A stretch of 37,998 nt of DNA from a virus, in IMG/VR virus record IMGVR_UViG_3300034120_000377, positions 1-37,998 of that record. One strand, 5' to 3'. Made by a program: the position numbers and the translations under genes. The notes beneath the pieces are model-generated. The model did not search any database and was not told the origin of the DNA. It was given only the letters and a program-made list of their open reading frames with translations. Below, in pieces: positions 1 to 37,998 of the stretch. Positions within the stretch are counted from its first letter, which is position 1, and each line of letters starts with the position of its first letter.

Positions 1-146
1 CAGATAGACTGAAGTAGCTTGAGTCCATCCATGCACCTTGATCGTCTGGTGTAAGACTCACCTGAGTCGGCTATGATCCTGCCGTTGCGGGACAGGATGC
101 GCCATCTCCACTGCTTACGGGCATCTTGGTAAATAATAGCCTTCAT
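1..146 (-). CDS. DUF1508 (YegP-like) small protein, 3'-truncated by the window edge
   Basis: ATG at 144-146, reading off the window edge after about 48 codons. The protein begins MKAIIYQDARKQWRWRILS and continues NGRIIADSGESYT, which is the DUF1508/YegP pattern (an aromatic strand followed by WRWR, NGxIIAdSgE and a Y). Proteins of this family are small beta-sheet proteins of poorly defined role. The second copy at 36068-36244 is complete and shows the missing C-terminus. It lies 13 bases downstream of the DUF736 stop, so the two are probably co-transcribed. The family call is from motif memory. Confidence 0.8.
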   Translation of the reverse strand, partial: MKAIIYQDARKQWRWRILSRNGRIIADSGESYTRRSRCMDGLKLLQSI

Positions 147-159
147 TTGACTTATAGCG

Positions 160-408
160 TTAGAAAGGTAAATCTGAGTGTCCTACATTAACCGACTGCC
201 GATCGTTCGTCTGAGGGCTTGTATTGGCTTTATACGGCTCTTTAATCGATATGCTCAGATACTTCTGCCCGGATTTGCTGGTTCTGACCCATGCAGCGAG
301 GTCCTTCGGCTTGCCATCAACCATGCACTTCCCGTTGTAGTCGGGATGATTGTCTGCTGTCTTCTTGTCGTTGGCGAAGAGTACGCCTGAATTGTCTTTC
401 TGTTCCAT
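160..408 (-). CDS. DUF736-like small protein (copy A)
   Basis: 82 residues starting MEQKDNSGVLFANDKK. The pattern G-x-LFxNdKK, nHPDYnGkc, a W-x-x-tSKsG and then GQKYLSISI resembles the DUF736 family of small, possibly nucleic-acid-binding proteins found in phages and plasmids. The C-terminal 20 residues are polar and ungrouped. The start is preceded by a CAACAACA leader with no Shine-Dalgarno site. Copy B at 36258-36506 differs at only three residues (S/T, V/A and R/K), showing purifying selection. As the first gene after the candidate origin, a role in replication or ssDNA handling is possible but is inference. Confidence 0.85.
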   Translation of the reverse strand: MEQKDNSGVLFANDKKTADNHPDYNGKCMVDGKPKDLAAWVRTSKSGQKYLSISIKEPYKANTSPQTNDRQSVNVGHSDLPF

Positions 409-855
409 TGTTGTTGTTTATTTTGATTAACTTGTAAACGTAGTTTTTAAATCCATGCACTGCTCAATAGTTGATGAATCTTCATCAGAAATTCATTGTG
501 ATGATGCGTGATGATAATGTTAGGAATTGTGACGTTCTAACTTATTGATTTTCTAACTATGTTATGATGTTATGATACTAATCATAACAATAGGTAAAGA
601 AAGAATTAAAAAAAATAATATAATATATATAAAATAGATAGCCTTGGGATCATCACATAATCGTTATCTTACAATATCAGCGAGTTAGATCCTCGCAACA
701 ACGTCACACGATCCTCACGCATCATCACATCTGCCTCGTTTTTGCCCCACATCATCCCGCAAGATCCCCACATGACCCTCACCGATCCCGCCAGTAATGA
801 TCGAAGTCGCACATTGACCGGGCATAGACATGACCTCTGGCATCATGTGCATGGA
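409..855. other. 447-base noncoding region, candidate replication origin (copy A)
   Basis: No convincing gene. Direct repeats GTGATGAT (498-505, 508-515) and GTTATGAT (561-568, 569-576) lie on one side of an AT-rich tract (about 591-646, A-run then alternating A/T). On the other side are the complementary motif ATCATCAC (649-656, 721-728) and variants ATCCTCGC (689-696) and ATCCTCAC (711-718). GTTATGAT at 569-576 also pairs with ATCATAAC at 581-588 across a 4-base spacer. Iteron-like repeats flanking an AT-rich core next to the primase fit an origin. Most of the repeats and the AT core are kept in copy B. Origin function is inference. Confidence 0.5.
435..467 (-). promoter_or_regulatory. Candidate Bacteroidota-type promoter for DUF736 and downstream genes (copy A)
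   Basis: On the minus strand a TTG (465-467) is followed after 22 bases by TACGTTTA (435-442), close to the Bacteroidota -33 TTG / -7 TAnnTTTG pattern; the last base is A instead of G. The same two boxes with the same 22-base spacing are kept in copy B (36532-36564), although the sequence around them has diverged. It lies about 27 bases upstream of the start codon. Confidence 0.45.
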
Positions 856-3411: not shown

Positions 3412-3642
3412 TTAAGAGTTGTTCCAGTCTTGGTGCGTGAGTATCTCATCGAGCAGTCGAGATAGTCTCGCCCACTTGCGCTTGCTCACGATGTAGTATT
3501 CACGCAGGTGTGGAGGTGCGATGTCGATGCCATCGAGAGCCTCGAAGTAGCGAGAGATGCATGAGTTGTATGCGCTTTGTGATGGTCGGACTTTGAGTCC
3601 GATGTCATCCCATTGGATCAGGAGGTTGTTGAGATAGTTCAT
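3412..3642 (-). CDS. Small hypothetical protein, 76 aa
   Basis: Begins MNYLNNLLIQWDDIGLKVR; contains SRYFEALDGIDIAPPHLREYY and a basic helix with KRKWARLSRLLDE. Soluble and predicted mostly helical. Its first 38 bases overlap the 3' end of the cytosine methyltransferase gene, indicating translational coupling in the same operon. No family recognised; an accessory replication or host-takeover role is possible only by position. Confidence 0.75.
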   Translation of the reverse strand: MNYLNNLLIQWDDIGLKVRPSQSAYNSCISRYFEALDGIDIAPPHLREYYIVSKRKWARLSRLLDEILTHQDWNNS

Positions 3643-4846
3643 ATTGTTCTATTGATTTGAATATTTGATACACTACTTGAGGGACTATGGCGTTTCCACC
3701 GCCTTTGATTGACTCTTGTCTCCATTTAGGAAAGGTAATTCCGTCCAGTCGGGAGGAAAACCCATCATCTCCATTACAAATTGGGGATTGAGTTGGGAAG
3801 TTTTGCCAGTTACCAATCTCGCCCGCTTCGTTAGTGAATCTTGATTTTCCAATCCCGTTGATTTCTCTCCGCAATCGGATGCCATCGGTGTCGGTAGGAG
3901 TCCTTGATTCATCAGTCCATTCTTCAGGCAAGTTCCCCCTTGTGCATAGTTTGTGTTCCTGTCGCAACCAGTCGCTGTCGGTGTCGGTAGGAGTCCCTCC
4001 TTCTGCAATAGTGCCATCTTTCCGCTCAACATATTCGCAGTTCCGTCCGACCTCAACTGACCCTTCCAGTCTCCTGATATCGGTGTCGGCAACATTCCGT
4101 GGAATTGAAGATGGTCTAATATTGAGTTCGGTCTTGCTTCCCCGTTCGCTCTGCTGAACATTGATGTTGCTCCTGTTTCTTGTAGTGCTTGTACTCTCTC
4201 CGGGTGTTCCCGTTGAATTGCTGTCGGGGTTGGGAGCATCCCCATTTTCTTTGCATATTCCGATGGACTCATTGTCCTTCCTTTGGCAAATTCCTCCGAT
4301 CTTGGTATCTCGTTTGCTCTTGGTGTTGAAAGCCACAAACCAAACTCGGTCCCTTCGATGGGGAGCGTTGACGGCACAAGCTGGAAGTACATACGATTGG
4401 ACTTCGTACCCTTGAGCTTCCAAGTCAGCTTGCACCTCTTCGAATACCAGCCCTCCTGACCAATTAACAATGCCGAGAACATTCTCGCCCACGATCCATT
4501 TCGGCTGAACTTCCCGAATGACTCTAAGCATTTCCGGGAAGAGATGTCTCTCGTCTTCTTTGCCCAATCGTTTTCCTGCCATAGAGTAGGGTTGGCATGG
4601 GAAGCCACCGGTGATGATGATGTCATCATTTCTCCAGTCTGATCCAAATCTTCTGGAAAGTTCAATGTCGATTGTTTCATAAGTTAATGTGTGAATGTCT
4701 CTGTGATGATAGGCATCTGCCCAGTAATATTCAAGTATTTTGTTTCCGAATTCATTGATCTCGCAACTGAGGTAGTTCTTCCATCCCATCCACTCTGATG
4801 CAAGATCAAATCCACCGATGCCTGAGAATAGTGAGAAGTGAATCAT
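3605..4846 (-). CDS. DNA C5-cytosine methyltransferase
   Basis: 413 residues from ATG 4846, which overlaps the upstream stop as ATGA; the longer reading frame upstream has no family similarity. Motif I FSLFSGIGGFD (4-14), motif IV GGFPCQPYSMAG (80-91) with the catalytic Cys84, motif VI ENV (121-123), motif VIII RRDR (164-167) and the late motif GNAIVP (384-389) are all present. It should methylate cytosine in DNA, most likely protecting phage DNA from host restriction or marking it. No restriction partner is visible. Residues about 175-370, the target-recognition region, are low complexity with repeated TPTDTDS/VADTD strings, because a second ORF is read through this DNA in the +1 frame (3685-4680). 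Confidence 0.92.
   Translation of the reverse strand: MIHFSLFSGIGGFDLASEWMGWKNYLSCEINEFGNKILEYYWADAYHHRDIHTLTYETIDIELSRRFGSDWRNDDIIITGGFPCQPYSMAGKRLGKEDERHLFPEMLRVIREVQPKWIVGENVLGIVNWSGGLVFEEVQADLEAQGYEVQSYVLPACAVNAPHRRDRVWFVAFNTKSKRDTKIGGICQRKDNESIGICKENGDAPNPDSNSTGTPGESTSTTRNRSNINVQQSERGSKTELNIRPSSIPRNVADTDIRRLEGSVEVGRNCEYVERKDGTIAEGGTPTDTDSDWLRQEHKLCTRGNLPEEWTDESRTPTDTDGIRLRREINGIGKSRFTNEAGEIGNWQNFPTQSPICNGDDGFSSRLDGITFPKWRQESIKGGGNAIVPQVVYQIFKSIEQYELSQQPPDPMG
3685..4680 (-). CDS. Overprinted 331-aa ORF inside the cytosine methyltransferase gene (LPTP-repeat protein)
   Basis: An ATG-initiated frame, +1 relative to the methyltransferase, fully nested within it. The product looks protein-like: CKLTWKLKGTKSNRMYF (83-99), four LPTP motifs (149-152, 197-200, 231-234, 262-265), LNPQFVMEMMGFPPDWTEL (297-315) and a C-terminus ending SKAVETP. 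I recall LLPTPTASD...MGFPxxWTELP sequences from phage proteins annotated as DNA methylase-like, so I think this frame is a real, recurrent family, but I could not search for it. The methyltransferase TPTDTDS strings are the shifted reading of LPTPTA codons. The start lacks a strong ribosome site; it may be translated by internal initiation or reached by frameshift. Confidence 0.6.
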   Translation of the reverse strand: MKQSTLNFPEDLDQTGEMMTSSSPVASHANPTLWQENDWAKKTRDISSRKCLESFGKFSRNGSWARMFSALLIGQEGWYSKRCKLTWKLKGTKSNRMYFQLVPSTLPIEGTEFGLWLSTPRANEIPRSEEFAKGRTMSPSEYAKKMGMLPTPTAIQREHPERVQALQETGATSMFSRANGEARPNSILDHLQFHGMLPTPISGDWKGQLRSDGTANMLSGKMALLQKEGLLPTPTATGCDRNTNYAQGGTCLKNGLMNQGLLPTPMASDCGEKSTGLENQDSLTKRARLVTGKTSQLNPQFVMEMMGFPPDWTELPFLNGDKSQSKAVETP

Positions 4847-5268
4847 CTCCACCCCCTCCAGCTCATGTGATTGACTACGATGCCACCGATCGCACCGATG
4901 GCGATTGCCTTCCACCAGTGGTTTCCCTTCTTGCGCTTGGCGAGGTCTTTCTCCAGCCCTCTGATCTTGAACTCCTGATCTGTTGTGAGCGTCTCGTACA
5001 CGCTCACAGACTCACGCAGTGAAGCGATCTTACTCTTGTGCATGGCTTGTATGCTGTCGGTGACAGACAGTGCCTGCTCATAGTTGGTGTTGACTTCCAT
5101 GCACAGACGCAGTTGTTCCCGGTCATCATCACAGCGTACCAAGTCCTGCACCATCTTAGTCACGATGCGCTTGGGCAGTGCGATGATGGAGTCCTTACTT
5201 GTAGCGGTTTGTGAGAAAGCGGACAAGCTCGTCATTAGACATACGAGCAATGATAGAGTTCTTCTCAT
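4843..5268 (-). CDS. Exported coiled-coil protein, Rz-like partner
   Basis: 141 residues. N-terminal signal-like segment MRRTLSLLVCLMTSLSAFSQ (cleavage plausible after AFS or FSQ), a central helical region with several coiled-coil heptads (about 45-110), and a short C-terminal hydrophobic stretch WKAIAIGAIGGIVV. It overlaps the upstream Rz-like gene by 74 bases and the methyltransferase start by 4. A nested pair of a signal-anchored coiled-coil protein and an exported protein resembles spanin (Rz/Rz1) pairs that disrupt the outer membrane at lysis, but no lipobox cysteine is seen and it is distant from the endolysin. Confidence 0.65.
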   Translation of the reverse strand: MRRTLSLLVCLMTSLSAFSQTATSKDSIIALPKRIVTKMVQDLVRCDDDREQLRLCMEVNTNYEQALSVTDSIQAMHKSKIASLRESVSVYETLTTDQEFKIRGLEKDLAKRKKGNHWWKAIAIGAIGGIVVNHMSWRGWR

Positions 5269-9837: not shown

Positions 9838-10407
9838 TTAGCTGATCCGCCCGAAAATAAGGTTCTCACCGTTCCGGTCCAGCACCTGATACCCCTCCAA
9901 TTGCAGGTCCTGACCATCATGCTCCACCACCCATACCTTCACATCAGGCATCCGGGCAGACATCCACCGGAACAGATCAGCACTACCTCCCTCGACATCG
10001 ATGCTCACTAAGTCATAAGCATAACCATGCTCGTCAAGTATCTCCGAGATAGGTGTGGTCATCATCGTGCATTCGTGAAACGGTGTTGCCTTCAACCACT
10101 TCTCGTAGTTGCCTATGTTCATGGTAGCAGTTGCCTCTGTGTTGTCGAAGAACGTCACCTCTCTGCTCTCTTCAATATCAACAAGTGCATGGATCAGCGT
10201 GACTGACTCCTGCGTGATGTTTTTCTTCAGCAGTTCAAAAGTCATCGGACTGCCTTCGATCATCACACCACTCCACCCATCTAACACCAGCGAATAGGTG
10301 TTACTTAAAGCGATGCCATCATACGCACCGATGTCAAGGAAGCGTCCGATCTTTCCTTGAAAGTAATTACTGATGATCGTCTGTTCGTTGTTTTGGCTGT
10401 ACTTCAT
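9838..10407 (-). CDS. FkbM-family SAM-dependent methyltransferase (second copy type)
   Basis: 189 residues. FLDIGAYDG (23-31) is the SAM motif I, with VMIEGSP downstream and LVSIDVEGGSADLF as the FkbM acidic motif; SQNNEQTIISNYF at the N-terminus is the usual FkbM lead-in. It is not close in sequence to the other FkbM gene (5512-6159), so they probably differ in substrate. It is the last gene of the late block after the fibres and holin, in keeping with a role in modifying surface glycans of the virion or host. Confidence 0.85.
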   Translation of the reverse strand: MKYSQNNEQTIISNYFQGKIGRFLDIGAYDGIALSNTYSLVLDGWSGVMIEGSPMTFELLKKNITQESVTLIHALVDIEESREVTFFDNTEATATMNIGNYEKWLKATPFHECTMMTTPISEILDEHGYAYDLVSIDVEGGSADLFRWMSARMPDVKVWVVEHDGQDLQLEGYQVLDRNGENLIFGRIS

Positions 10408-24345: not shown

Positions 24346-26386
24346 ACTGAGATGCTTTAGATGTCTGCAATGTGATGTCTGCAAGACCAGTTGTGTGATT
24401 GTACTTTAATTCTTGAATCCATCCGAATCGAGGGTCCTGACCATTCATGCCGAAGGTAAATCGACCAACAGGATTCGCAAGGATAGCATCGAAGTCTGTC
24501 TGCGTCATTGGATAAGTGAACTTGTGAAGTTGCACTCTTATGTTTCGTTGATCCACATTTACAAATATACCACCATAATTGTTCGCAGTCGTACATTCAA
24601 AGTAAGTATTGTCAATGCCTCCGATGATCGTTCCCCTGTTCGATCCTAACACACTACCGATAGGATAGGGTGGACCGAAAGGATATGCAGTAGTCGCAGG
24701 ATCATATTTCACTTGCATATCAATGTAATCTCCCTGCGTCATTGCTATCGATGTAGGTGCGATGATGCCGTTAATTGTCACACCCAGAATTGTATTCGGT
24801 CCGATGTACATCACCTGATTGTTGATGGTCGGGAATGTTGGATTCGGTGTGATGTATGGATTCGTAGGATTCAAGATCGGATCGTACATCTGATATATCT
24901 GTATGACATTGCCAACAGCATCACGATGCACGCACCAGAACTGATAGTATCCTTTACCATTCAATGTACCTGCCTGACACTGTATCCTGATCTGTGCTTT
25001 GAAATTATACACGCCAGTCTCCAATGCTGTGTACCTGCACAAGACAGGATCGTAGTAGTTTCCGAAGTCAAAGCTTTCAGTCGTGTTAAACTGAGTAGTA
25101 GTGACAGGAGTCAGATAGTTCGGTGTTCCACTACACGCAAGATTAGTGGCTCTGTAAGCGAGCGCACGCCCATCTTGCGTCTCTACGAAGAACGCTGCAA
25201 GACTATCGCTCAAGTCCTCAATGTATCTATCTGCAATATTCTGATTGTTCAACTCCTCATTGTAGAAGAATCGTGCAGGATTAGATCCTATGAAATTCGT
25301 GTTCGTTGTCCTTCCTGATGTCGCATTTGTCAAAATCGAATCAATGAGGAATATATTGTTGTCATAGCCCTGATCACCGAAGTCAACAAGACGCTGGATG
25401 ATGTTACTCGATGTGATCCAGTCGCACGTGAGATCAAGAGTCTGATCAAGGTTGCACGTGCCTAAGATGTGGAACTCTTCTTGCTTAAATCCATAGAAGT
25501 TGATCGTCTCAGGAAAGTCCGTGAAGGTATCATCGACAGGACTGCCGAAACGCACCACCGCATAGAGTTTATCCTGATCGTAACTGCTAACGATCTCCTC
25601 GATGTCATTAGCTGAATATACGATGTTCGCATTGTTCAGATAGTCAATGCTCTCGATTCTCACCACTGGTGATCCATAAGGATCATCAATGAGTAAGACA
25701 ATCGGAATCCGCTTGTTGATCTCATTGAACAGATCATTGAAACTGAATGGCTCCCATCTTCCTACCAGAATACTTGGAGTAACGCCACGTAATCGCTCCC
25801 CTGTGGTGATGCACAGCCCTTCCCATTGTCCATTGATGCCGAAAAGACTTGAAGAGAAACCTACCTTGTTGTCACTCATAAACGAGATATAATACTTGAA
25901 CGCTTCAAACACCCTGCAACAATCAACTGTGTACTTGAGTACATTGTTCAACACACGATGTACGTCAAGTTCATATACTACCGGAGCAGTGATCTGTGCA
26001 AGGTTCTTCGTGAAGTCCGCATCGAGAGCAGTATCTATATTCTTGTTGTTGTTTATACGACTGAAAAAACTCATGTCGTTGACCTTGCAATTCGCAATAC
26101 AAGTGCGCTCGTTGATCTCGACATCTACGATAAACAGTGTGCCTTTGAAGATCAGTTGCTCCTGACCATCGCATTCTTTCAAGATTGAAACAACGATCTC
26201 CTCGCAGAAAGTATCACCATCAACGATCGCTTTGATATAAGCGAATCCACTACCATCGAACTCCAGAGTATATTCTTGAAACAACAAGAACAGATTCTGA
26301 TCCTTGTCACGCCTCAATGTAGATGTGATCTCCTGCCAGTTAAGAGCAGGATCGACATAGTTACCATCGAACATGAACTTCATCAT
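24335..26386 (-). CDS. Large tail protein (distal tail / tail-associated), 683 aa
   Basis: First gene after the tape measure and overlapping it by 4 bases, which is where distal tail and baseplate hub proteins normally sit. The N-terminal third has beta strands with SFFSRINNNKNIDTALDAD, and the rest is beta/loop with aromatic-rich strands. Cysteine-containing NERTCIANCKVND. No catalytic motif. Assignment is by position and length. Confidence 0.65.
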   Translation of the reverse strand: MMKFMFDGNYVDPALNWQEITSTLRRDKDQNLFLLFQEYTLEFDGSGFAYIKAIVDGDTFCEEIVVSILKECDGQEQLIFKGTLFIVDVEINERTCIANCKVNDMSFFSRINNNKNIDTALDADFTKNLAQITAPVVYELDVHRVLNNVLKYTVDCCRVFEAFKYYISFMSDNKVGFSSSLFGINGQWEGLCITTGERLRGVTPSILVGRWEPFSFNDLFNEINKRIPIVLLIDDPYGSPVVRIESIDYLNNANIVYSANDIEEIVSSYDQDKLYAVVRFGSPVDDTFTDFPETINFYGFKQEEFHILGTCNLDQTLDLTCDWITSSNIIQRLVDFGDQGYDNNIFLIDSILTNATSGRTTNTNFIGSNPARFFYNEELNNQNIADRYIEDLSDSLAAFFVETQDGRALAYRATNLACSGTPNYLTPVTTTQFNTTESFDFGNYYDPVLCRYTALETGVYNFKAQIRIQCQAGTLNGKGYYQFWCVHRDAVGNVIQIYQMYDPILNPTNPYITPNPTFPTINNQVMYIGPNTILGVTINGIIAPTSIAMTQGDYIDMQVKYDPATTAYPFGPPYPIGSVLGSNRGTIIGGIDNTYFECTTANNYGGIFVNVDQRNIRVQLHKFTYPMTQTDFDAILANPVGRFTFGMNGQDPRFGWIQELKYNHTTGLADITLQTSKASQYGS

Positions 26387-28512
26387 AGCATCTGCCTCCT
26401 GTTAATGCGTCCTGCCAGTTCACTCGCAATCGCCTTACCTACGATCTGTGCATTCTCAATCTGCACTCCCTTGTTACGACTCATTGCCTTGCTCAATGCG
26501 TATGTGTCAACCTTCGCAGTCACCGTATCTCGTCCGATACTACCACGCCCTGCAAGACGATTCAACACATAAGCATTGATATCTGATGGACTGATCTGCT
26601 TCTCGTAGATCGCCTTGAGTGTAGGATGGTATGACCTGTTGCGATCGGCAGGAATCACGGCTTCACCCGGATGCAACATTGCAAGACTGCCACCATCAGC
26701 ATCGAGGTTGCCACCGCCTACGTTGAGAGTACCCTGCTTGAATCTTGGTACTGGAGTAGCAATGATCTTTGCAAGGTTCAACCCTCCTACTGCTGCTGCT
26801 AATGCTAACGCTGCTGGAGGATTCGGTGTTGTGAGTGCTTTGACTAACGCCTCTGTGAATGCTAACGTAGCTGCGAAGACTGAGAACTCTTTCTCCTGCT
26901 TGGCTGCATCATTCTTGATCTTCCTGAGTTTTGCCTGATATTCTTCCTCTGTGATGATGCCCTGCTCTTTCTGTTGTTCAAGATCATTTATCTGTGCTTG
27001 TATTGATGCTTTGCTTAAATCTTGAATGAAGTCAAATGATGCTGCTGCTAAATCTTTGATAAACTTTTGTCGCTCTTCATAGTCTGCTTTAAATTCTTCC
27101 TTTTCTTTATCTTTTATCTCTTTTCTCTTAGCTGCAATCTGTGCATCAATTAACTCAGTATCTTTTGCAAATTGAATAAGTATCTGACGCTTTTTTTCCA
27201 GAGACTCTAACTCAGTAACAAGATTTGCATTCTCCCTGTCCTTAGTGTTTTCTATAATTGTTAGATCAGCAGTCTTTCTAAGATTTGCAAAATCATCAAC
27301 TGCTTTTAATTGATTCTGAAGTTCACTTTCAAATTGTGATTGCAAACCCTTTGTTGCTGAATCTTGTCGTTCACGTTCTGCTTGCTCTCTTAATAATTCT
27401 TCTTGTGCTAAATCAGATATACTTTTCTTTAATTCTTCATTCAGTAGTTTCTCATTTCTCTTAAGATCATTAATAGATGTAGTTATATCCTTTTTCTTTT
27501 CTTCTTCTTTAACTTGATCTTTAATTGAATTCAGAGTATCCTGATTAATCTTATTGAACTCAAGTCTCTTCTTAATTAATTCAGCTTCATTAGCACCTTG
27601 CAATTTCAGAATTGATAATTGTAATTCCTGCTCTTTCCTTAATTCTTCAAATGATTTTAACAGATCATCGGTACTTCCCTTCGCTGCTTCTTCTGAATCA
27701 GCCAAGATATAATATGCTGCTGCGAGTGCGCCAAGAATCAAAACGATAGGACCTAACGAAGCAGCTAATCCTCTGTTCGCTGCTGCTGCTGTTTGAGCAG
27801 ATACAGCCTCTGCTTCATTAGCAACAGTCAACGCTTTCTGCGCTGTTGTTGTGATACCAAGAATAATCTTAACATCCTCATACGCTTCCTTCAATCCTAT
27901 TATTGATTGAATTCCCTGCACGACATTCAATGCACCTTGTAATCTCTGTGCAATCTCCTGCACTCTTTCATTCTCAGCACCGAATGCTTGCAATGCTCCG
28001 GTTGCTACTTGGAACGATCCGAGAATACCCTGACCAAGATTGCTGAATGCTTTGATCTTGTCCTCTGGCTCAATCAATTTAATCTGACGATTCAAATCAT
28101 CAAGCTGAGCAGTCAGCGCACCTGCGTTCTTCCTCGCTGCTTGCGCCTCTGCGCTAAATGGTCCAAATGCAGCCTCTGCTTTCTGAAGTTCTTCCTTTGC
28201 CTCTTTGAGTCGTTGACGAAGTGGAACAAAATCTTTTGCCGTTGTCTTTACTTCTTCATCTAATTTTTTTAGTTTATTATTAAGCTCATCAATTCTTTTC
28301 TGCGCCTCTAACGCTTCTTGACTATTCTCGCCAAACTCTTTATTTAATTTCTCGAGTTCAATTGTAGCCTTCTTGCTGGAGTTCTCTAACTCTTTATAAG
28401 CAGCAGCAGTCTCCTTAGAAACTTTCCCTGCACGAACTAATTTATCGATGCTATCATCGAGTTCGTCACTGACTACACCGAATACGATGTTTACTGTTTC
28501 CGTTATCGCCAT
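26383..28512 (-). CDS. Tail tape measure protein
   Basis: 709 residues. Long coiled-coil N-terminal half (KKATIELEKLNKEF, EELQKAEAAF), hydrophobic segments near residues 250 (LGPIVLILGALAAAYYIL) and 560-600, and a C-terminal NLDADGGSLAMLHPGEAVIP block typical of phage tape measures. By the usual 1.5 Angstrom per residue the tail would be near 105 nm. The central part is distinctly AT-rich. It overlaps the next tail gene by four bases (ATGA). Confidence 0.88.
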   Translation of the reverse strand: MAITETVNIVFGVVSDELDDSIDKLVRAGKVSKETAAAYKELENSSKKATIELEKLNKEFGENSQEALEAQKRIDELNNKLKKLDEEVKTTAKDFVPLRQRLKEAKEELQKAEAAFGPFSAEAQAARKNAGALTAQLDDLNRQIKLIEPEDKIKAFSNLGQGILGSFQVATGALQAFGAENERVQEIAQRLQGALNVVQGIQSIIGLKEAYEDVKIILGITTTAQKALTVANEAEAVSAQTAAAANRGLAASLGPIVLILGALAAAYYILADSEEAAKGSTDDLLKSFEELRKEQELQLSILKLQGANEAELIKKRLEFNKINQDTLNSIKDQVKEEEKKKDITTSINDLKRNEKLLNEELKKSISDLAQEELLREQAERERQDSATKGLQSQFESELQNQLKAVDDFANLRKTADLTIIENTKDRENANLVTELESLEKKRQILIQFAKDTELIDAQIAAKRKEIKDKEKEEFKADYEERQKFIKDLAAASFDFIQDLSKASIQAQINDLEQQKEQGIITEEEYQAKLRKIKNDAAKQEKEFSVFAATLAFTEALVKALTTPNPPAALALAAAVGGLNLAKIIATPVPRFKQGTLNVGGGNLDADGGSLAMLHPGEAVIPADRNRSYHPTLKAIYEKQISPSDINAYVLNRLAGRGSIGRDTVTAKVDTYALSKAMSRNKGVQIENAQIVGKAIASELAGRINRRQML

Positions 28513-28513
28513 C

Positions 28514-29740
28514 TTAGTATATCTCTAACACTGTTACCAATCCCCCTGCACCTGACCCTCCTGCTCCACTTGTTGTGCCGTTGAGCGTACCACTACCGCC
28601 TCCACCACCTGCACCATAAGACCCACCTGCTGTACCTGCGATGTTGCTTGGAACACCTCCTGCACCGCCTGTGCCGAGACCATACACTCCACTGAGCGAT
28701 GTGCTAAACATAAAGTTCAACGCCTGATTCGCAACACCTGCGTTGCCTGTCGTGGGTCCAGTGATCAACACACCATTCGTATAGACACCACCACCTGTTG
28801 ATGTGGCAACGCCTGATGTGTTAGCCGAGTTTATGCCTTGCCCCCCTGCACCGCCAGCTCCTGCGAGTGATCCACTTAATCCGGGAGTACCTACCGCAGA
28901 GCTTGATGTTGTCTGACCTGCTGACCCACTCGCTGCTGGTGTAGCATAAGGACCATACGCAGGTGATGACGCTGCTGCTGTTCCTCCTGTTCCTGCCGTT
29001 CCTGCTGTCGTTGTTCCACCACTACCACCAACACCACCCTTTGCAATCACTGCACTGCCGAACGAACTATCTCCACCAGTCGTGCCTGTGTTGCCATTGT
29101 TCGATGTTGATGCCTGACCATTTGCGCCACCACCACCAGTACCCACTGTGATCGCATACGATGGACTCATGCTCGATGCTTGGAACATCCTCCACACAAG
29201 CGCACCGCCTCCACCGCCACCACCACCAAATCTGTTCTCACCTGCTGCTCCCTGTCTTCCACTACCTCCTCCACCACCTGCACCCAAGCAGCATACTAAC
29301 GCTGCTTTGAGTGTCGCTGATTTGTTCCACGTGCCACTTGCAATGAACTGCGTCAGGACAAGACTCTCCTGCCCTGCTCCTGTGTTCAGCACCGTCCATC
29401 CATTCTCACGACTGAACTGCAAGGTCGCACCACTGGCAAGCGATGCCTTCACTACGATGTAATTCGTAGCACTCACATCCTTCTGCACCGTGATGATCCT
29501 CGTCACCGTGTCTGCATTGTACACTGTCAAGTGTGCGATCTGCCGAGTCGTACTCGCTCCCGGTGCGCTCACCGCAGTCACTGGTGTAGTGCCAGTGAGC
29601 AATCCCTGACTGCTACTCTGTGGCAGAGTCATCCCTGCACTTGTGTGATCGTTGTACGCCACTGAATAGACAGGCTCATTCGTTGTCGCTGTCGCATCAG
29701 AGAGTATCTCAAGTATATGTGTCGTTGCTGATAAATACAT
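28514..29740 (-). CDS. Glycine-rich tail-associated protein
   Basis: 408 residues. N-terminal 140 residues form a beta-like domain. From about 150 the protein has long runs of Gly, e.g. GAGGGGGSG, then repeated TAGTGGT, GSGAGG and a closing short tail LVTVLEIY. Such Gly-rich domains in phage tip proteins form polyglycine-II type bundles used for receptor contact. The product is very low in charge. It lies before the tape measure gene. Confidence 0.7.
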   Translation of the reverse strand: MYLSATTHILEILSDATATTNEPVYSVAYNDHTSAGMTLPQSSSQGLLTGTTPVTAVSAPGASTTRQIAHLTVYNADTVTRIITVQKDVSATNYIVVKASLASGATLQFSRENGWTVLNTGAGQESLVLTQFIASGTWNKSATLKAALVCCLGAGGGGGSGRQGAAGENRFGGGGGGGGALVWRMFQASSMSPSYAITVGTGGGGANGQASTSNNGNTGTTGGDSSFGSAVIAKGGVGGSGGTTTAGTAGTGGTAAASSPAYGPYATPAASGSAGQTTSSSAVGTPGLSGSLAGAGGAGGQGINSANTSGVATSTGGGVYTNGVLITGPTTGNAGVANQALNFMFSTSLSGVYGLGTGGAGGVPSNIAGTAGGSYGAGGGGGSGTLNGTTSGAGGSGAGGLVTVLEIY

Positions 29741-30522
29741 CAGTATGATGATATGTAAGATAAAGTTAATGCAGGATCGAAGCCACCACCACCACCACTC
29801 ACGCCCATCACTTCAGTGAGTGTGACGATCATGCTCGGTATCGCTGGTCGTGTCGGTGATGATGCTGTGCCTTGCGCCAATAGTTGAACTGATGTTGACG
29901 AACTATGCCATGCAAGTTGAAGATAGTCCCCTGCGTTGAGTGACAAGACGAAGTTCCATGCAGGGACATAAGTGCCGTTGTTGTGATGAATCTCAAACTC
30001 AGTATTGCTGTCAGCGACATTGCTACCATTCAACTTCAACCACAACTGCACATACGCATCAGGACCACTGCCCTTCTCAAACTGTGCGCTGAACTGAAGA
30101 TTGTAAGTCCCGGCATTGACAACGGTGATCTCATCACCATTCTGAATGCTCACACCATTCTCTTCAAATACACTCCCGATCTGGATGATGTTCTCCGCTG
30201 TCGCTCCTGCGTTAGTCTGATTCGTGCTGTCGTAGTAACTGCCGTAGTACACCGATGGCGCATTCGCTGCGTAGTTGTTGATGATCGCATCGATCTTCGT
30301 CTTCAGATCAGTTGCTGAAGTCCCGACAGGTGCAACGCAATCAGTGTAGAGAATAGCATACTGCTGACGCAGAAGATTAGTCTCTAACTGATGCGTGTAG
30401 AAATACACATAGTCACCATACACCGCAGTCAGGCAGTACACCTTCTTGTAGATATACTCCAGACTGTCTTCGGTTAGCTTGACCGTAGTGTCGCTGAAAT
30501 CAACAACAGAGTAGGTTGGCAT
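29740..30522 (-). CDS. C1q-like beta-sandwich virion protein
   Basis: 260 residues. An N-terminal 75-residue helical part with TKIDAIINNY, then a region resembling C1q/TNF-like modules: VFEENGVSIQNGDEITVVNAGTYN is read as strands, with AGDYLQLAWHSSSTSVQLLA and IPSMIVTLTEV at the end. C1q-like modules often serve as trimeric tail tip or head decoration. Between the polyglycine protein and the small 102-aa gene. Confidence 0.65.
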   Translation of the reverse strand: MPTYSVVDFSDTTVKLTEDSLEYIYKKVYCLTAVYGDYVYFYTHQLETNLLRQQYAILYTDCVAPVGTSATDLKTKIDAIINNYAANAPSVYYGSYYDSTNQTNAGATAENIIQIGSVFEENGVSIQNGDEITVVNAGTYNLQFSAQFEKGSGPDAYVQLWLKLNGSNVADSNTEFEIHHNNGTYVPAWNFVLSLNAGDYLQLAWHSSSTSVQLLAQGTASSPTRPAIPSMIVTLTEVMGVSGGGGGFDPALTLSYISSY

Positions 30523-30524
30523 GA

Positions 30525-30833
30525 TTACGGTGCGAGCTGTGCGATCGCTTCAGATAAGTCAGATACTATAACATAAGGACTGTTCACTTCCGATCCATTG
30601 TATCGTAAGACATCATAGTCTCCATTGCTCAATCCGATGTAATGCTGACCGAAATGAATAGATCCGAACTCTGTATTGACAGTGTCACAGAAGGAACTAA
30701 ACTCAGCAATGTTGAAGTAATACAATCGACTGCTTATTGTCTCTTCATTTTCTGTGATTTCAATCTGAACCTTTGCGATGCCAAATGACCCGAAGCCTAA
30801 CTCCGGTGCAAGTATGTTAATTTCTTTTCCCAT
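30525..30833 (-). CDS. Small hypothetical tail-module protein, 102 aa
   Basis: Begins MGKEINILAPELGFGSFGIA; acidic, mixed alpha/beta. ATG overlaps the TAA of the frameshifted chaperone frame (TAATG). That junction is one of the reasons to accept the frameshift. No family recognised; a tail component by position. Confidence 0.7.
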   Translation of the reverse strand: MGKEINILAPELGFGSFGIAKVQIEITENEETISSRLYYFNIAEFSSFCDTVNTEFGSIHFGQHYIGLSNGDYDVLRYNGSEVNSPYVIVSDLSEAIAQLAP

Positions 30834-31084
30834 TATTCTGATTTATTTGTGTGTTCAATTAGTAGTAAGTATTCCCACAATGTGAGCTTCATGCAATTCA
30901 CGCCATACCTCTGATTGATCAGAGTGCGTTGGATGAATCCATTTTCGTTTTGCTTCGCAAGGCGATACGCTGGAGACTCTCCCTCTCCATGATGTTCAAC
31001 TGATCTATTACCGTTAAACAAGTCCGCAAATCTTCCTCTGATAGCGTTGGCAATGGCAGCAAATCCTTCAGCTGCGTCACGATA
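30833..31084 (-). CDS. -1 frame 'T' part of the tail assembly chaperone (GT-type fusion)
   Basis: Open in the -1 frame from exactly the T7 slippery run (31084-31090) to TAA at 30833-30835, 83 sense codons. In this frame an in-frame TGA directly precedes the slippery run, so the open stretch begins at the slippery site. The peptide starts YRDAAEGFAAIANAIRG and ends MKLTLWEYLLLIEHTNKSE, which is protein-like. No good ATG exists near its 5' end. The fusion would be 167 residues of the 0-frame protein plus 83, about 250 aa. Confidence 0.72.
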   Translation of the reverse strand, partial: YRDAAEGFAAIANAIRGRFADLFNGNRSVEHHGEGESPAYRLAKQNENGFIQRTLINQRYGVNCMKLTLWEYLLLIEHTNKSE

Positions 31085-31584
31085 AAAAAATCACTGACAT
31101 CAGCTGCCTCCTTCCAGCGTTCAATCTTCTGCTTGCAATACTCAGGATCGTAACTGTATGGACTCTCATTCTTGTCGAAGAACGCAACACTCGCAAACTT
31201 ATAGATGATCTCCGATGTCGGGACTACCCACTCCACTCGCTCCTTCAAGGCATTCACCATCTTCACCAACTCACCAATCTTAATCTGCTTTGGATCATTG
31301 ATGATCTTGTCGAACGCCTCGATGAACAATACCAGATGCTCCTTCTGCATCCTCATGTTCCACTCTTCATACACCTGCAACGCCATCAGCCCTCGCATAC
31401 TGAAAGTATTGAAGTAGTCCTTCAATCGGTAGTATTGCACTCCTCCACTGATGAAGGCAGGTTCAATCACATGACCCTCTTCAATCTGCCAGATCGGCTT
31501 GTGACCGAGACGAGTGATGATCTTCGCCCAGACGTTGCGAATAGTATTCTTGAATTTCGCCCAATATTGTTTCTTGTTGTCCAT
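30919..31584 (-). CDS. Tail assembly chaperone 'G' form, unshifted
   Basis: 221 residues, beginning MDNKKQYWAKFKNTIRN; the middle has GGVQYYRLKDYFNTFSMRG and long helices. It precedes the tape measure module and overlaps a second open frame at its 3' end, as lambda G/T-type chaperones do. TTTTTTT at 31084-31090 is in phase as GAT TTT TTT ATC. Unshifted translation gives the 221-aa form. Three structural genes separate it from the tape measure, which is unusual. Confidence 0.68.
   Translation of the reverse strand: MDNKKQYWAKFKNTIRNVWAKIITRLGHKPIWQIEEGHVIEPAFISGGVQYYRLKDYFNTFSMRGLMALQVYEEWNMRMQKEHLVLFIEAFDKIINDPKQIKIGELVKMVNALKERVEWVVPTSEIIYKFASVAFFDKNESPYSYDPEYCKQKIERWKEAADVSDFFIVTQLKDLLPLPTLSEEDLRTCLTVIDQLNIMERESLQRIALRSKTKMDSSNAL
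31084..31090 (-). promoter_or_regulatory. -1 ribosomal slippery heptamer U_UUU_UUU
   Basis: Minus strand T7, phased GAT TTT TTT ATC, so it reads as the X_XXY_YYZ heptamer T TTT TTT. A -1 slip continues TAT CGT GAC GCA. In the -1 frame a TGA ends directly upstream of the run, so the new frame opens exactly there. Confidence 0.75.
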
Positions 31585-31750
31585 ATCTCGTAGTTCTTCC
31601 GTTGTGTCTTAACTGCCATCTCCCATCGTTGAACAGCATCACCTCATGACCATCGCTGTGCTTCCATCGGAATGGCTTGCCCTTACAAGCACATCGCCCC
31701 AGAGGGAAGTATTGCATCTTGATCAGATATGAGTTGATGATCTCAATCAT
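31481..31750 (-). CDS. Small hypothetical protein, 89 aa
   Basis: Begins MIEIINSYLIKMQYFPLG, contains CACKGKPFRWKHSDGHE and GRWQLRHNGRTTRYG, and ends polar. The start overlaps the preceding gene by 8 bases and the 3' end overlaps the chaperone start by 104 bases. M12 (31717) is a possible alternative start. Basic, with a CxC pair. No family recognised. Confidence 0.6.
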   Translation of the reverse strand: MIEIINSYLIKMQYFPLGRCACKGKPFRWKHSDGHEVMLFNDGRWQLRHNGRTTRYGQQETILGEIQEYYSQRLGEDHHSSRSQADLAD

Positions 31751-32760: not shown

Positions 32761-32789
32761 CAAATATACATCATAAATATCGAATCCAA
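32761..32789 (-). promoter_or_regulatory. Bacteroidota-type promoter before the tail module
   Basis: Minus strand TTG (32787-32789), 18 bases, TATATTTG (32761-32768). Only 5 bases separate the -7 box from the ATG at 32755, so the transcript would be leaderless or nearly so. The -33 part overlaps the terminase 3' end. It probably opens the tail operon. Confidence 0.6.
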
Positions 32790-33994
32790 TCACGATGAAA
32801 CGTAGCACAGTAGTACCTGAAGCAGTCAAGCAGATCGCTCTTCCGGATGTCCGTCCTACGATCCTTGATGATGTCTCCATCCTCGTCCACCTCCACGTAC
32901 TTCAAGTCAGTGATCAGCCCCTTGCACGATCTGTCAATCTTCACGCAGTAATTCTGAAGCAGACTGTTGACAAGCACCCGCGTATCTCTTACGCTTGGAT
33001 TCACAGCAGGTTGACGCATCTGCATCCTTCCTAACCTCAACCGAGACTGCACCACATCGTAGTACCCGGTGTTCCCGGCAGTGAGCGCAGAACGATTCGC
33101 ACCTGTCGCATCACCAGTCACGATGAGCGATGCCTTCGGATATTTGGCAATGATCGAATCGCACAACTGATAGATGTCGCTGTTACGCAGGGCGAACTCA
33201 CCAATCACATTGATGCATCCGCCTACGTGCTGGACTGCGATGCAAGTGATCGGGTCCACGTTGAAGTCAAAGCTGAGATAGATATGCTGATGCGGATCGA
33301 AAGCAACATCATGCACGTGCTTGTCCACATCGAAAGCGTAAGCGAAAGGATTGTTAGCGAGGTCAACATCCTCTGCAAGTATCTCGCACCGGAAAGTCAA
33401 CTCATCGAGTTGATCACGCAGGTGATCCACCTCTTCGTGATTGATATGCGGATTGTCATAAGTTGACAAGTTAAAACTTGACCAGCTCGGATCGTCTCTG
33501 GTGAATAGCTCCTTGAAGAATGTCCTCCCGAACTTCGGTGTGCTGAGAATCCACGCATCACCCTTGTAGTCCAGCAGCGTAGCCATGATCGTCTGCGTCC
33601 ATGCCTCCCTGAACTTCTTCGCCTTCTCTGCCTCATCAATCACGACCCTCGCATACTTGCGCCCACGACCAGAGTCAGGCTCATCCATACTCCAGAAGTC
33701 AATCACGCCACCTGTCACCAGACGCATCTGCTTCGTCTGCTCGTTCTTGCTCTCGATGATCGGCTTCAATGTGTACTTGAGTTCAAGCCATACATCATGC
33801 AGGTCCTTATACGTGGGTGCATAGTACGCACACGGCTTGCCATCAAGCGCAACCTGAGGAAGCAACTCATTCACCGCAAGCGTGGTCTTACCCCACCTCC
33901 TTCCGATCTTCAAGACATTGTACCTGCTCGCCTCACTGATGACACGCTCCTGACCAGAGTGCAGACGCTTGAGCTTGATGGCGATGTCAGTCAC
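32771..33994 (-). CDS. terL: Terminase large subunit
   Basis: 407 residues. ATPase: Walker A-like GRRWGKTT (31-38) and Walker B VVIDEAEK with D120/E121. Nuclease: the LSFDFNVDP strand (about 240-250), VTGDATGANR (about 290) and KSDLLDCFRYYC near the C-terminus give the RNase H-like acidic triad. It packages DNA into the prohead at the portal. It overlaps the small partner gene by 8 bases. In this genome the tail module, not the portal, follows it. Confidence 0.93.
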   Translation of the reverse strand: MTDIAIKLKRLHSGQERVISEASRYNVLKIGRRWGKTTLAVNELLPQVALDGKPCAYYAPTYKDLHDVWLELKYTLKPIIESKNEQTKQMRLVTGGVIDFWSMDEPDSGRGRKYARVVIDEAEKAKKFREAWTQTIMATLLDYKGDAWILSTPKFGRTFFKELFTRDDPSWSSFNLSTYDNPHINHEEVDHLRDQLDELTFRCEILAEDVDLANNPFAYAFDVDKHVHDVAFDPHQHIYLSFDFNVDPITCIAVQHVGGCINVIGEFALRNSDIYQLCDSIIAKYPKASLIVTGDATGANRSALTAGNTGYYDVVQSRLRLGRMQMRQPAVNPSVRDTRVLVNSLLQNYCVKIDRSCKGLITDLKYVEVDEDGDIIKDRRTDIRKSDLLDCFRYYCATFHRDWIRYL

Positions 33995-34559: not shown

Positions 34560-34861
34560 TCAATCTCGCCCTCCTCTCTCAGCACCCTCTCAGCCCATCT
34601 CAAAGCAGGCTCACCACCCCATAGCAGATAGCTGATCGTCCCACACGCAGTGTCATCGTTAGGATCGTAGTACTCCCCTGCACGACTCAAGTACGAGTAC
34701 ATCCGCTTCACGGTCATCGTAGTGATAGGCTCACGGTTCGCTAACTGCTGCGATCTCACCTTCCCGACCTGCGTAGCACATCGGTTGCCGATCTCATCGT
34801 TTAACCTGATGCCTCGCTCCGCTGCTTCGCTGATCGCTCTCGGATAATCTGTATATGTCAT
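34556..34861 (-). CDS. Conserved phage protein with LSRA...CGTISYLLWGG pattern, 101 aa
   Basis: Reads ERGIRLNDEIGNRCATQVGK, then RMYSYLSRAGEYYDP and ACGTISYLLWGGEPALRWAE. I recall this pattern as a recurrent domain of phage head or packaging regions; I know no biochemical role. ATG overlaps the glycosyltransferase stop (ATGA), so it is translated with the glycosylation genes. Confidence 0.72.
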   Translation of the reverse strand: MTYTDYPRAISEAAERGIRLNDEIGNRCATQVGKVRSQQLANREPITTMTVKRMYSYLSRAGEYYDPNDDTACGTISYLLWGGEPALRWAERVLREEGEIE

Positions 34862-35427
34862 TTATTCGATCTGTATTGGTAGTAGTAGAGAAACTGATCT
34901 ATGAATATCTTGTCCTTCACCAGCCCACTCTCTGCGAGTCTCAGCGCATAGTCATAGTCTTCACCCATGCTGATAGACTTGTATCCGATCTCCCTCGCTA
35001 TGCTCGTCATCACCGGATTGAGATGATTGAGAGGACGAAGGTAACGCATCGATCCATCGTATCTCTCAGGCTTCTCGCTCCAATTCAGCCCGGCACGATG
35101 CACGAACTCCAGAGGCTGCTTTGAGTTGGTAGTGATGATACCCTTGAATCCGACACCATACACATCTCGCTTGAGCTGCGACAAGATCAGATCAACATAG
35201 TTCGTGCTGATCATATCATCGTCATCGATGAAGTTCATGTACTTGGTTGTACATGAGTCCACAGCGTACTGTCGCTTCTCTCCGATGCTATGCTCCTTGT
35301 TGTCCTTAATCACGATCACCTGCACTGGCTTGCAGTCAATCTGGGGATCCAGTCGTGTGCGAAGTCGTGCGAGCATCGACTCCCTCCCGGTGATGGTCAG
35401 GATGTAGATCGTCCACAATGGCTTCAC
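34858..35427 (-). CDS. GT2-like glycosyltransferase with DDDD motif
   Basis: 189 residues from GTG 35427, chosen because GTG and the upstream TGA overlap as GTGA, like the ATGA junctions elsewhere; an ATG at 35481 is inside the upstream gene. WTIYILTITGRESML is the first strand, YMNFIDDDDMIST the metal/sugar-nucleotide motif, and MGEDYDYALRLAE a likely catalytic-base region. The product should transfer a sugar from a nucleotide donor. Downstream of a second GT in the same operon. Confidence 0.8.
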   Translation of the reverse strand: MKPLWTIYILTITGRESMLARLRTRLDPQIDCKPVQVIVIKDNKEHSIGEKRQYAVDSCTTKYMNFIDDDDMISTNYVDLILSQLKRDVYGVGFKGIITTNSKQPLEFVHRAGLNWSEKPERYDGSMRYLRPLNHLNPVMTSIAREIGYKSISMGEDYDYALRLAESGLVKDKIFIDQFLYYYQYRSNK

Positions 35428-36071
35428 AGCGGAAAGCCGATCTTCTGTCGTTGATTGAATAGTCGCTGTCCGTGTGTCCATGCAGTTGCTGAGTTCTCAC
35501 GCTTGTATGTCTCGTCAAGTTGAGACTTGCCTACCGTGTAGTGTCTGTGTTCTATCTCGATGCTCTCGTCAACGTGGTACATACCATGCGCCTTCGCTGT
35601 CTCAGTCAGATCGTTGTCGGCAAACATACTGATGTACTTGGGATGGTAGAGATAGCCGAGTCGCTCGTATGCGCCTCTGTTCATGATCGGGATCGTCAGG
35701 ATGTCCGAGCGAATGCCATCATGCACTTGCAGGACCGCAGGCTCTGGATGCCGAGCGAACCAGTCAAGCAGTAGCGAGTCCCATCCTTGAGGTGCGAACA
35801 TATCATCGCTGACGAGGATCAAGATGTCCTGCCCTGCGATCTTCGCCCCTGCATTGGATGCCATGACCATGTTGGTCGCTCCCGTGCTGATGATGGTGAC
35901 CGGCTCATGCCTGAAGATGTGGATGTATTGCGATGCAGTCGGATCATTGTCGCTAAGTGAGATGATCCACTCATACTCGCAGGCATTGTCGCTCTTCATC
36001 ACCCAATGCTTGTAGCAGTCATGCGCCTGTCGTGGACGCTTGAAGCTGGGGTGTACCAAACTGATGTTCAT
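35424..36071 (-). CDS. Glycosyltransferase family 2-like protein
   Basis: 215 residues from ATG 36071 (MNISLVHPSFKRPRQAHDCY), which overlaps the DUF1508 stop as ATGA; the longer frame upstream is inside DUF1508. YEWIISLSDNDPT and QDILILVSDDMFAP supply a GT-A fold with a DD metal motif, and MFADNDLTETAK is a likely catalytic-acid region. Paired with the next GT. Together they could decorate virion or host glycans, or modified DNA bases, but no base-modifying partner such as a hydroxymethylase is seen. Confidence 0.8.
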   Translation of the reverse strand: MNISLVHPSFKRPRQAHDCYKHWVMKSDNACEYEWIISLSDNDPTASQYIHIFRHEPVTIISTGATNMVMASNAGAKIAGQDILILVSDDMFAPQGWDSLLLDWFARHPEPAVLQVHDGIRSDILTIPIMNRGAYERLGYLYHPKYISMFADNDLTETAKAHGMYHVDESIEIEHRHYTVGKSQLDETYKRENSATAWTHGQRLFNQRQKIGFPL

Positions 36072-36244
36072 GCGATGATGATTTGAATCTCCTGACCGCA
36101 GATAGACTGAAGTAGCTTGAGTCCATCCATGCACCTTGATCGTCTGGTGTAAGACTCACCTGAGTCGGCTATGATCCTGCCGTTGCGGGACAGGATGCGC
36201 CATCTCCACTGCTTACGGGCATCTTTGTAAATAATGGCTTTCAT
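36068..36244 (-). CDS. DUF1508 (YegP-like) protein, complete copy
   Basis: 58 residues. MKAIIYKDARKQWRWRILS, NGRIIADSGESYT and a C-terminus CGQEIQIIIA that is missing from the truncated copy A. Differs from copy A at one residue (K versus Q at position 7) over the shared part. ATG is 13 bases after the DUF736 stop; its own stop overlaps the first glycosyltransferase start. Confidence 0.82.
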   Translation of the reverse strand: MKAIIYKDARKQWRWRILSRNGRIIADSGESYTRRSRCMDGLKLLQSICGQEIQIIIA

Positions 36245-36257
36245 TTCGTTTATAGGC

Positions 36258-36506
36258 TTAGAAAGGCAAATCTGAGTGTCCTACATTAACCGACTGGCGA
36301 TCGTTCGTCTGAGGGCTTGTATTGGCTTTATACGGCTCTTTAATCGAAATGCTCAGATACTTCTGCCCAGACTTGCTGGTCTTGACCCATGCAGCGAGGT
36401 CCTTCGGCTTGCCATCAACCATGCACTTCCCATTGTAGTCAGGATGATTGTCTGCTGTCTTCTTGTCGTTGGCGAACAGTGCGCCAGTGTTGTCTTTCTG
36501 TTCCAT
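36258..36506 (-). CDS. DUF736-like small protein (copy B)
   Basis: 82 residues from ATG 36506 (MEQKDNTGALFANDKK), chosen to match copy A; a longer in-frame start lies in the noncoding leader. Three residues differ from copy A. CAACAACA leader. Followed by DUF1508 and two glycosyltransferases in the same operon, which gives the complete gene order missing from copy A. Confidence 0.85.
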   Translation of the reverse strand: MEQKDNTGALFANDKKTADNHPDYNGKCMVDGKPKDLAAWVKTSKSGQKYLSISIKEPYKANTSPQTNDRQSVNVGHSDLPF

Positions 36507-36932
36507 TGTGTTGTTGTTTATGATTAACTTGTAAACGTAGTTTTTTAATTCATGCACTAATCAATACTTGTTGAATCTTCATCAGAAATTCATTGTGATG
36601 ATGCGTGATGATAATGTGATGAAATGTTATGATCTAACTTATTGATTCTCTTATTATGTTATGATGTTATGATTACTTATATAAAAAAACGTAAAGAAGG
36701 AATATAAAAAAAATAATATAATATATATAAAATAGATAGGCTTGGCATCATCACATAATCGTCATCTTACAATATCAGCGATTTACATCCTCGCAACAAC
36801 GTCACATCAACCTCACACATCATCACATCTGCCTCGTTTTTGCCCCACATGACCCTCACCGATCCCGCCAGTAATCATCGAAGTCGCACATTGACCGGGC
36901 ATAGACATGACCTCTGGCATCATGTGCATGGA
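36507..36932. other. Noncoding region, candidate replication origin (copy B)
   Basis: 426 bases without a supported gene. Keeps the GTGATGAT-type and GTTATGAT repeats, the AT-rich core and the ATCATCAC/ATCCTCGC motifs of copy A, but lacks the inverted arm at 581-588 and the 21-base segment near 753-773. What remains constant between copies is the best guide to functional sites. Confidence 0.5.
36532..36564 (-). promoter_or_regulatory. Candidate promoter for DUF736 operon (copy B)
   Basis: TTG (36562-36564), 22 bases, TACGTTTA (36532-36539) on the minus strand, identical boxes and spacing to copy A. Confidence 0.45.
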
Positions 36933-37998
36933 TCACCCCACCGTAAAGTACACTCCATCTCGGCTTGTCTTCTTGGTGACGTTAAGATTCATGAACTTGA
37001 ATGTGTCTATGATCCACTGCATGATTGTCCTGTGCATGGTCTTCTGATGCTCTTGGAATGCTGACCTGATCTGATCAACTATATCAGTGAGCTTGTATTC
37101 GACTCCGACAATGACGAACTCCTTAATCCATTGCATGACTTCTTCCGGGACTGTGTTGATCAGTTTCTTATAGCGAAGCGTGTTGTTGGTGCTTGGTAAG
37201 AGTCCGACATCAAGGTACTGAGCCACGCAGTACATCATAAAGTTATCAAAGAGCTGCCATTGCTTGGCATCCCATCCATCGAAGAGGTTGTGCTTGAAGT
37301 ATTGGACCGGCTTGTAGTCCTTATGAAAGAATCTCTTGAGTTCTATCTCGTGTTTGCGTCTCTCTTGCGAGTCACCGTGACCGCTGATGACATAGTTGGA
37401 GGTGATCATCACCTTGGGTGCTTCAGCATAGTCGATGTAGTAGGAGTCCTTGTTCTTCTTCTCGATCTCAATACCATCGGTGATCAGGGAGAATAGTTTC
37501 TCGAAGTTAAAGTTCTTGAGGACATCCTCCCATGCAAGCACCTGCGTTGCGAGTGTGACACGCTGGTATAGGAAGGGCTTCGTCCACGACCATAGCTTGC
37601 CATCGAACTTCACGGTGCGCTTGATGTGTGAGATGCCCTGAATGAAGATGCCCTTGCCGACACCTCCCTGCGCTGTGTCTGAGATGATCTCGTCTGTGAT
37701 GATGACTGCCTTCGGGTTGGACTTGTCCTTGTAGCCGTGCAGGAGAAAGCCGATGGTGTTGCAGATAGAGTCGAAGTTACGGATGTTCTCTTCGGTCATC
37801 TGATCTCCGGTGCTGATTAGTCGGATGAAGTCCCAGTATTCAGAGTATGGAATCTGATCTTTGGTCAGCAGTTCGAAGTCTCTGTCGATGATCTGATCAG
37901 CCCAGATGTAGGAGTCCATCGTGGTGGTGTAGTCGCACACTTCGATGTTGTCGGCTGTGACTTTCAGCATACAGTTCCGGTAGTAGAAATAGGCTGTG
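36933..37998 (-). CDS. Primase-helicase, C-terminal part only (copy B, cut by the window edge)
   Basis: At least 345 residues plus the bases to the edge, in the same frame and ending VYFTVG as in copy A. The Walker A-like GGVGKG is present. Versus copy A, only four substitutions (N/D, D/E, V/A, R/L) over 345 residues despite roughly 6 percent nucleotide difference in the part I compared, so both copies look functional. The 5' part is outside the window, not lost. Confidence 0.88.
   Translation of the reverse strand, partial: TAYFYYRNCMLKVTADNIEVCDYTTTMDSYIWADQIIDRDFELLTKDQIPYSEYWDFIRLISTGDQMTEENIRNFDSICNTIGFLLHGYKDKSNPKAVIITDEIISDTAQGGVGKGIFIQGISHIKRTVKFDGKLWSWTKPFLYQRVTLATQVLAWEDVLKNFNFEKLFSLITDGIEIEKKNKDSYYIDYAEAPKVMITSNYVISGHGDSQERRKHEIELKRFFHKDYKPVQYFKHNLFDGWDAKQWQLFDNFMMYCVAQYLDVGLLPSTNNTLRYKKLINTVPEEVMQWIKEFVIVGVEYKLTDIVDQIRSAFQEHQKTMHRTIMQWIIDTFKFMNLNVTKKTSRDGVYFTVG

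Follow-up and report, generated by a model that had tools for sequence, protein, structure and literature searches.

Loading of the tape measure protein in lambda is the work of gpG and gpGT, and it is through the T domain that the tail tube subunit is recruited (PMC5009743). The proteins gpG and gpGT and their analogues are the subject of Xu, Hendrix and Duda 2004, as that work is cited in PMC3711429. Among signals for -1 frameshifting, those of the dnaX and IS911 kind combine a heptamer of the form X_XXY_YYZ with a Shine-Dalgarno (SD) stimulator. In E. coli the stimulatory SD range is 6–17 nt before the second base of the heptamer, and a downstream hairpin or pseudoknot is not present in all prokaryotic -1 cases (PMC4066793).

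We compare with these systems a locus of a 38-kb virus record from IMG/VR, of which the whole stretch of 37,998 nucleotides was analysed (hereafter the window). Nearly all of its long ORFs lie on the minus strand, the G/GT locus included. Our best explanation for the whole, to which we give a probability of about 0.9, is that a single recoded gene makes G and GT, two putative tail assembly chaperones, through a slippage that is probably raised by an AAGGAGG element in the lineages having seven Ts at the slip site (T7 lineages).

Frame layout at the slip site and its conservation

The zero-frame ORF, G (221 aa; 30919..31584, minus strand), codes for a putative tail assembly chaperone. It contains the slippery heptamer T_TTT_TTT (31084..31090, minus strand), which has the X_XXY_YYZ form and is in phase as GAT TTT TTT ATC. 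In the -1 frame the codon immediately 5' of the run is TGA, and the frame is then open (T part; 30833..31090, minus strand) for 85 codons, i.e. FF plus 83, with the product FFYRDAAEG...EHTNKSE. The closing TAA shares its last A with the ATG of a 102-aa gene (position 30833, TAATG). Between the stop of the 221-aa ORF and this ATG there is a gap of 85 bases. The initial annotation had described the phased T7, the TGA followed by 83 open codons up to a TAA overlapping the next ATG, and the gap that would be left if no shift occurred; all are found as it described them, on the minus strand, and the GT form that it put at about 250 aa is, from the sequence, exactly 250 aa long. Its term “canonical” for the U_UUU_UUU site undersells what is a comparatively weak shift site in E. 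coli.

According to the mechanism that we propose, the bulk of ribosomes would stop at the zero-frame end and yield G (221 aa). With tRNA-Phe in both the P and the A site, a minority would slip by -1 on U_UUU_UUU and yield GT (250 aa), consisting of residues 1–165 of G followed by FF and the 83-residue T domain. We infer this ribosomal slippage, and its G:GT ratio, from the sequence.

IMG/VR was scanned for relatives, the queries being G, the T part and alignments; this gave 42 distinct loci covering the slip site, with identities in the G part from 100% down to about 32%. The peptide patterns of the search exclude the slip site and so do not favour loci with T runs. A search for G among named phages, plasmids and bacterial genomes found none that encodes it. 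The initial annotation had proposed the conservation of the T7 in relatives as a check: the run is kept in phase in 42/42 loci, with a length of seven in 35, nine in six and eight in one. Further T7 runs occur several times on the coding strand, so that a T7 run alone proves little; its phase and its conservation are what count. With the codon usage of the window, the probability of GAT TTT TTT given Asp-Phe-Phe is about 0.045, and the codon comparison across loci gave zero third-base changes at the three heptamer codons (D165, F166 and F167). The codon that carries the first T varies between GAT (Asp), CAT (His), AGT (Ser), GTT (Val) and GCT (Ala); thus at this position the base is kept, not the residue.

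In all complete relatives the -1 frame reads through without a stop for 85–102 codons, while the probability that it stays open across the overlap, given the zero-frame amino acids, is 0.003–0.29 per sequence. Relatives without the slippery run and the -1 frame, which the initial annotation had named as evidence against its reading, are absent from the 42 loci. It had named as well an 83-aa part with a conserved start codon of its own, and no such start is conserved. This bears on the idea that the -1 ORF is a separate gene with an internal start, the T run being incidental. In the window a TTG at 31021, codon 24 of the -1 product, does open a frame of 62 aa, and in many relatives this codon is ATG or TTG. 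But codon 24 is CTG in L014, L026 and L103, TTA in L115, and ATT, CTT or GTT in L122 and L125–L127; moreover the -1 frame is also conserved between the T run and codon 24, and the T run is invariant across loci. With no ATG, GTG or TTG conserved in the -1 frame, an internal start was rejected, and we regard a separate gene as scarcely credible.

The two frames past the slip site were further compared by the rates of change at codon positions 1/2/3, expressed as changes per site on a tree of 34 loci. These are 2.48/1.66/6.70 before the run and 3.03/2.12/4.76 for the first 33 zero-frame codons past it. The lower third-position rate in the dual-frame overlap (30922..31083, minus strand) fits double coding. 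Past the zero-frame stop, the positions of the -1 frame give 3.67/1.93/6.41, and this pattern shows coding in the -1 frame. In L041 an insertion of two residues is found at the same place in both frames. The overlap is long, since the zero frame continues past the slip site for 54 codons in the window and for 37–55 in the main relatives. Because its sequence is conserved there (IVxQLKDMLPLPTLSEEDLxICL), G has a genuine C-terminus and not a short junk tail.

The AAGGAGG element and the length of the T run

An SD-like sequence, AAGGAGG (31107..31113, minus strand), ends 16 nt before the T run and is a putative stimulator. In the window and most T7 loci it lies 17 nt from the second base of the heptamer, and the corresponding distances in the L109 group are 19 nt to the run and 20 nt to this base. 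AGGAG(G) is found in 35/35 T7 loci and in 0/7 T8–T9 loci (n = 42), without exception. On the tree at least three changes are needed, and AAGGAGG and the run length switch together each time; L135 and L136, which have T7 and AAGGAG(G), are nested with T8–T9 relatives. A naive Fisher test gives p = 4e-8 but overstates this coupling, the loci being related, and the three joint switches are the honest count. The element was tested after it had been noticed in the sequence, i.e. not fully blind, although an SD-like element is a known upstream stimulator.

The codons of the element show no synonymous variation either. Within the main clade of T7 loci (n = 33) the Lys codon is AAG in all 31 that keep Lys, and the Glu codon is GAG in 33/33. 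Synonymous third-base changes at AAG GAG are zero, versus at least 2 at each of the 28 comparable conserved two-fold codons upstream. Near the site, zero is otherwise reached only by the heptamer codons and by codons after the run that are constrained by the -1 frame. Conservation of the peptide Trp-Lys-Glu, together with a preference for AAG and GAG, could by itself keep AAGGAGG without any role in frameshifting. This peptide is indeed conserved, and the window does use AAG and GAG more often than their synonyms (297/102 and 254/168, respectively). We consider this explanation unlikely nevertheless. Besides the contrast in third-base changes and the loss of the element in all T8–T9 loci, the probability of AAG GAG given Lys-Glu is just 0.03–0.21 in L027, L035, L037, L107, L109, L111, L135 and L136, and all eight use AAG GAG; the genomes of several relatives prefer AAA and GAA. 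In L115 and L116 the Lys is replaced by Ser and one codon is inserted, and AGGAGG is displaced by one codon, yet its spacing is still 16 nt.

AAGGAGG looks like an internal stimulator of the SD type that a longer T run can replace. It would probably raise slippage in the T7 lineages, from its place 16 nt upstream, and a T8–T9 run would replace it in the other lineages; we infer this role in frameshifting from the pattern of conservation.

No supporting RNA structure was detected downstream of the slip site in the window (z = +1.17), nor a conserved one after or around the slip site in the relatives, for which the consensus is at -4.6 kcal/mol with almost no covariation. Unlike the window, L126 has a strong hairpin directly 3' of its T8 run (L126:6451-6521, z = -3.5), which may be a third type of stimulator there.

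The frame could also change by transcriptional slippage, RNA polymerase adding a U, at least in the T8–T9 lineages. Runs of nine As or Ts induce slippage of bacterial RNA polymerase (PMC5009743), and six relatives have T9 and one T8, all without AAGGAGG. However, the window and 34 other loci have exactly T7, with the heptamer phased for tandem tRNA slippage, and AAGGAGG has no obvious role in transcriptional slippage. We hold this explanation to be very improbable; for the T8–T9 lineages, transcriptional slippage is a real alternative.

Gene neighbourhood and identity of the products

The 102-aa gene whose start overlaps the -1 stop (30525..30833, minus strand) is followed by two genes (28514..30522, minus strand) coding for proteins of 260 aa, with a weak BclA_C/minor tail match, and 408 aa, glycine-rich and tail-fibre-like. 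Next comes the gene of the tape measure protein (709 aa; 26383..28512, minus strand), which matches the PHROG tail length tape measure families with a best E of 2.6e-6. Thus, in the window, GT and the tape measure gene are separated by 2.3 kb and three genes. The region 28514–30833, with its BclA_C-like, glycine-rich fibre-like and 102-aa proteins, is a variable cassette: one to four variable genes occupy this place in the window and its nearer relatives, the content differs among close relatives, and distant ones have no cassette. In L041, L122, L125–L127 and L134–L136 the -1 stop is followed, at -8 to +9 nt, by the start of a gene for a protein of 665–997 aa. It matches PHROG tail length tape measure families in L126 (E 8.5e-28) and L127 (E 2.5e-4), and unnamed long families only in L122. 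The lambda-type position in the tail operon that the initial annotation had assigned to the pair is therefore seen in these eight distant loci, where it adjoins the tape measure gene, and is loosened in the window by the three intervening genes.

On the other side, a small gene (89 aa; 31481..31750, minus strand) overlaps the start of G, and a small ORF with a similar Cys-rich motif is found 5' of G in L122, L126 and L127. The terminase large subunit gene (32771..33994, minus strand; Pfam Terminase_6N E 4.2e-8, phrog_2 E 2e-39) lies upstream of the tail genes. The order in the window is similar to that of L125–L127, where terminase, a small membrane protein and short genes lie 5' of G. Among the genes 5' of G (small genes and terminase) none matched a major tail protein family in Pfam or PHROG.

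Other genes of the window call for brief mention. An ORF for a C5 cytosine methylase (3605–4915, minus strand, 436 aa) has a Pfam match with E 2.3e-38. Inside its span, in another frame of the same strand, lies a second ORF (3685–4680, minus strand, 331 aa), LPTPTA-rich and with QLNPQFVMEMMGFPPDWTELPF near its end; it has no match in Pfam and could be a long overlapping gene. An FkbM-type methyltransferase and two weak matches to glycosyltransferase family 2 were found at 9838–10407, 34858–35481 and 35424–36134.

Neither the G part nor the T part matched Pfam, PHROG or PDB sequences. G and T were folded as separate chains. The AlphaFold model of G shows a beta hairpin followed by helices (pLDDT 71.6), and its comparison with known folds, including those of the PDB, gave no confident structural match. 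Weak BFVD rows for this model include four annotated tail assembly chaperones at E 0.25–2.3, which prove nothing. The best reading, of high probability, is nonetheless that G and GT form a pair of tail assembly chaperones like lambda G/GT, with position and recoding, rather than common descent, as the grounds for the assignment. What the initial annotation had called a tail assembly chaperone with a -1 frameshift is thus supported by position and G/GT architecture, not by homology. In such a role G and GT would prepare the tape measure protein for polymerisation of the tail tube, as lambda gpG and gpGT do.

This putative chaperone function has to be weighed against a recoded pair with some other function, merely situated within the tail module, as the lack of homology to known chaperone families might suggest. 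But in the eight distant loci G/GT stands immediately 5' of the tape measure gene, the start of which it overlaps for a short stretch, and two products that share an N-terminus, one of them extended at the C-terminus, are the design of the lambda pair (PMC5009743). Another function appears very unlikely to us.

Host range and comparison with described systems

The host is probably a member of the Bacteroidota, because Polaribacter phages are the sole database matches of the portal protein, the protein encoded after the tape measure gene in L126 matches eight records of which seven are Flavobacteriia phages, and the primase has a BT4734-like domain. The ends of the record (window 1–1921 and 36099–37998) are homologous, with 91.5% identity over 1.9 kb, and carry the same primase gene; either a circular genome whose closure joined two strain variants or a chimeric assembly could account for this.

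SD motifs are found at gene starts in 3/35 cases in the window and in 5/81 and 1/40 in relatives, about the background frequency, and the bases upstream of gene starts are A-rich. For a phage whose genes seem to be started without SD signals, a conserved SD-like sequence next to the slip site is unexpected. The ribosomes of Bacteroidia are reported to be blind to SD sequences, their anti-SD being held by bS21, bS18 and bS6 (PMC9976891); if the host belongs to Bacteroidia, this argues against AAGGAGG acting via the anti-SD. Flavobacterium johnsoniae prfB retains its frameshift motif, with low efficiency (PMC12421855). Either the anti-SD acts during elongation here, or AAGGAGG works otherwise, or the host is outside that class. 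If the hosts are Bacteroidota, the question is whether a sequestered anti-SD can still act in elongation (PMC9976891), the same puzzle as for prfB (PMC12421855). We propose tentatively, at somewhat worse than even odds, that phages of SD-ignoring hosts use an internal AAGGAGG for the -1 shift in an unrecognised family of tail chaperones, and that between lineages this stimulator and a longer T run (possibly with transcriptional slippage) replace each other in either direction. If so, elongating ribosomes of Bacteroidota would have, or be given, access to the anti-SD.

Some isolated Flavobacteriia phages have a single-frame protein of 208–215 aa overlapping the tape measure start (L129:3357-3983, L130:4631-5260 and L131:2334-2981), which is likely a chaperone without frameshift. 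The likeness of Polaribacter P12002L, Leeuwenhoekiella Arctus_1 and Olleya Harreka_1 to our locus is this 208–215 aa protein immediately 5' of the tape measure gene. These proteins differ from G in having a single frame and no T-run shift site. Homology of G to such pre-tape-measure proteins was considered and rejected, profile comparison detecting none.

The frameshift signal resembles those of dnaX and IS911 by an SD-like element 5' of an X_XXY_YYZ heptamer, its 17 nt being at the edge of the 6–17 nt range (PMC4066793, PMC6321510). It differs from dnaX by a spacing longer than the reported 8–11 nt. In contrast to both, the window has no supporting hairpin 3' of the site, and its gene starts show no SD signal above background.

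With lambda gpG/gpGT the likeness lies in a predicted -1 shift that yields two products, one short and one long, with the same N-terminus, the T part being in the -1 frame, and in the position of G/GT 5' of the tape measure gene in distant relatives. There is no detectable sequence relation, and the shift site here is U_UUU_UUU. Lambda G ends soon after the slip site, whereas G here continues for 54 codons past it, and in the lineage of the window a cassette precedes the tape measure gene. G/GT thus belongs to a known kind of system; it is new in that its proteins fall in no recognised family, that the overlap coding in both frames is long, and that the upstream signal can be exchanged. To the tail chaperones that a frameshift has brought to light, the locus adds a family for which our Pfam and PHROG searches gave no match, with roughly 40–55 codons read in both frames. 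The coupling between AAGGAGG and run length is a natural experiment in the maintenance of a frameshift ratio.
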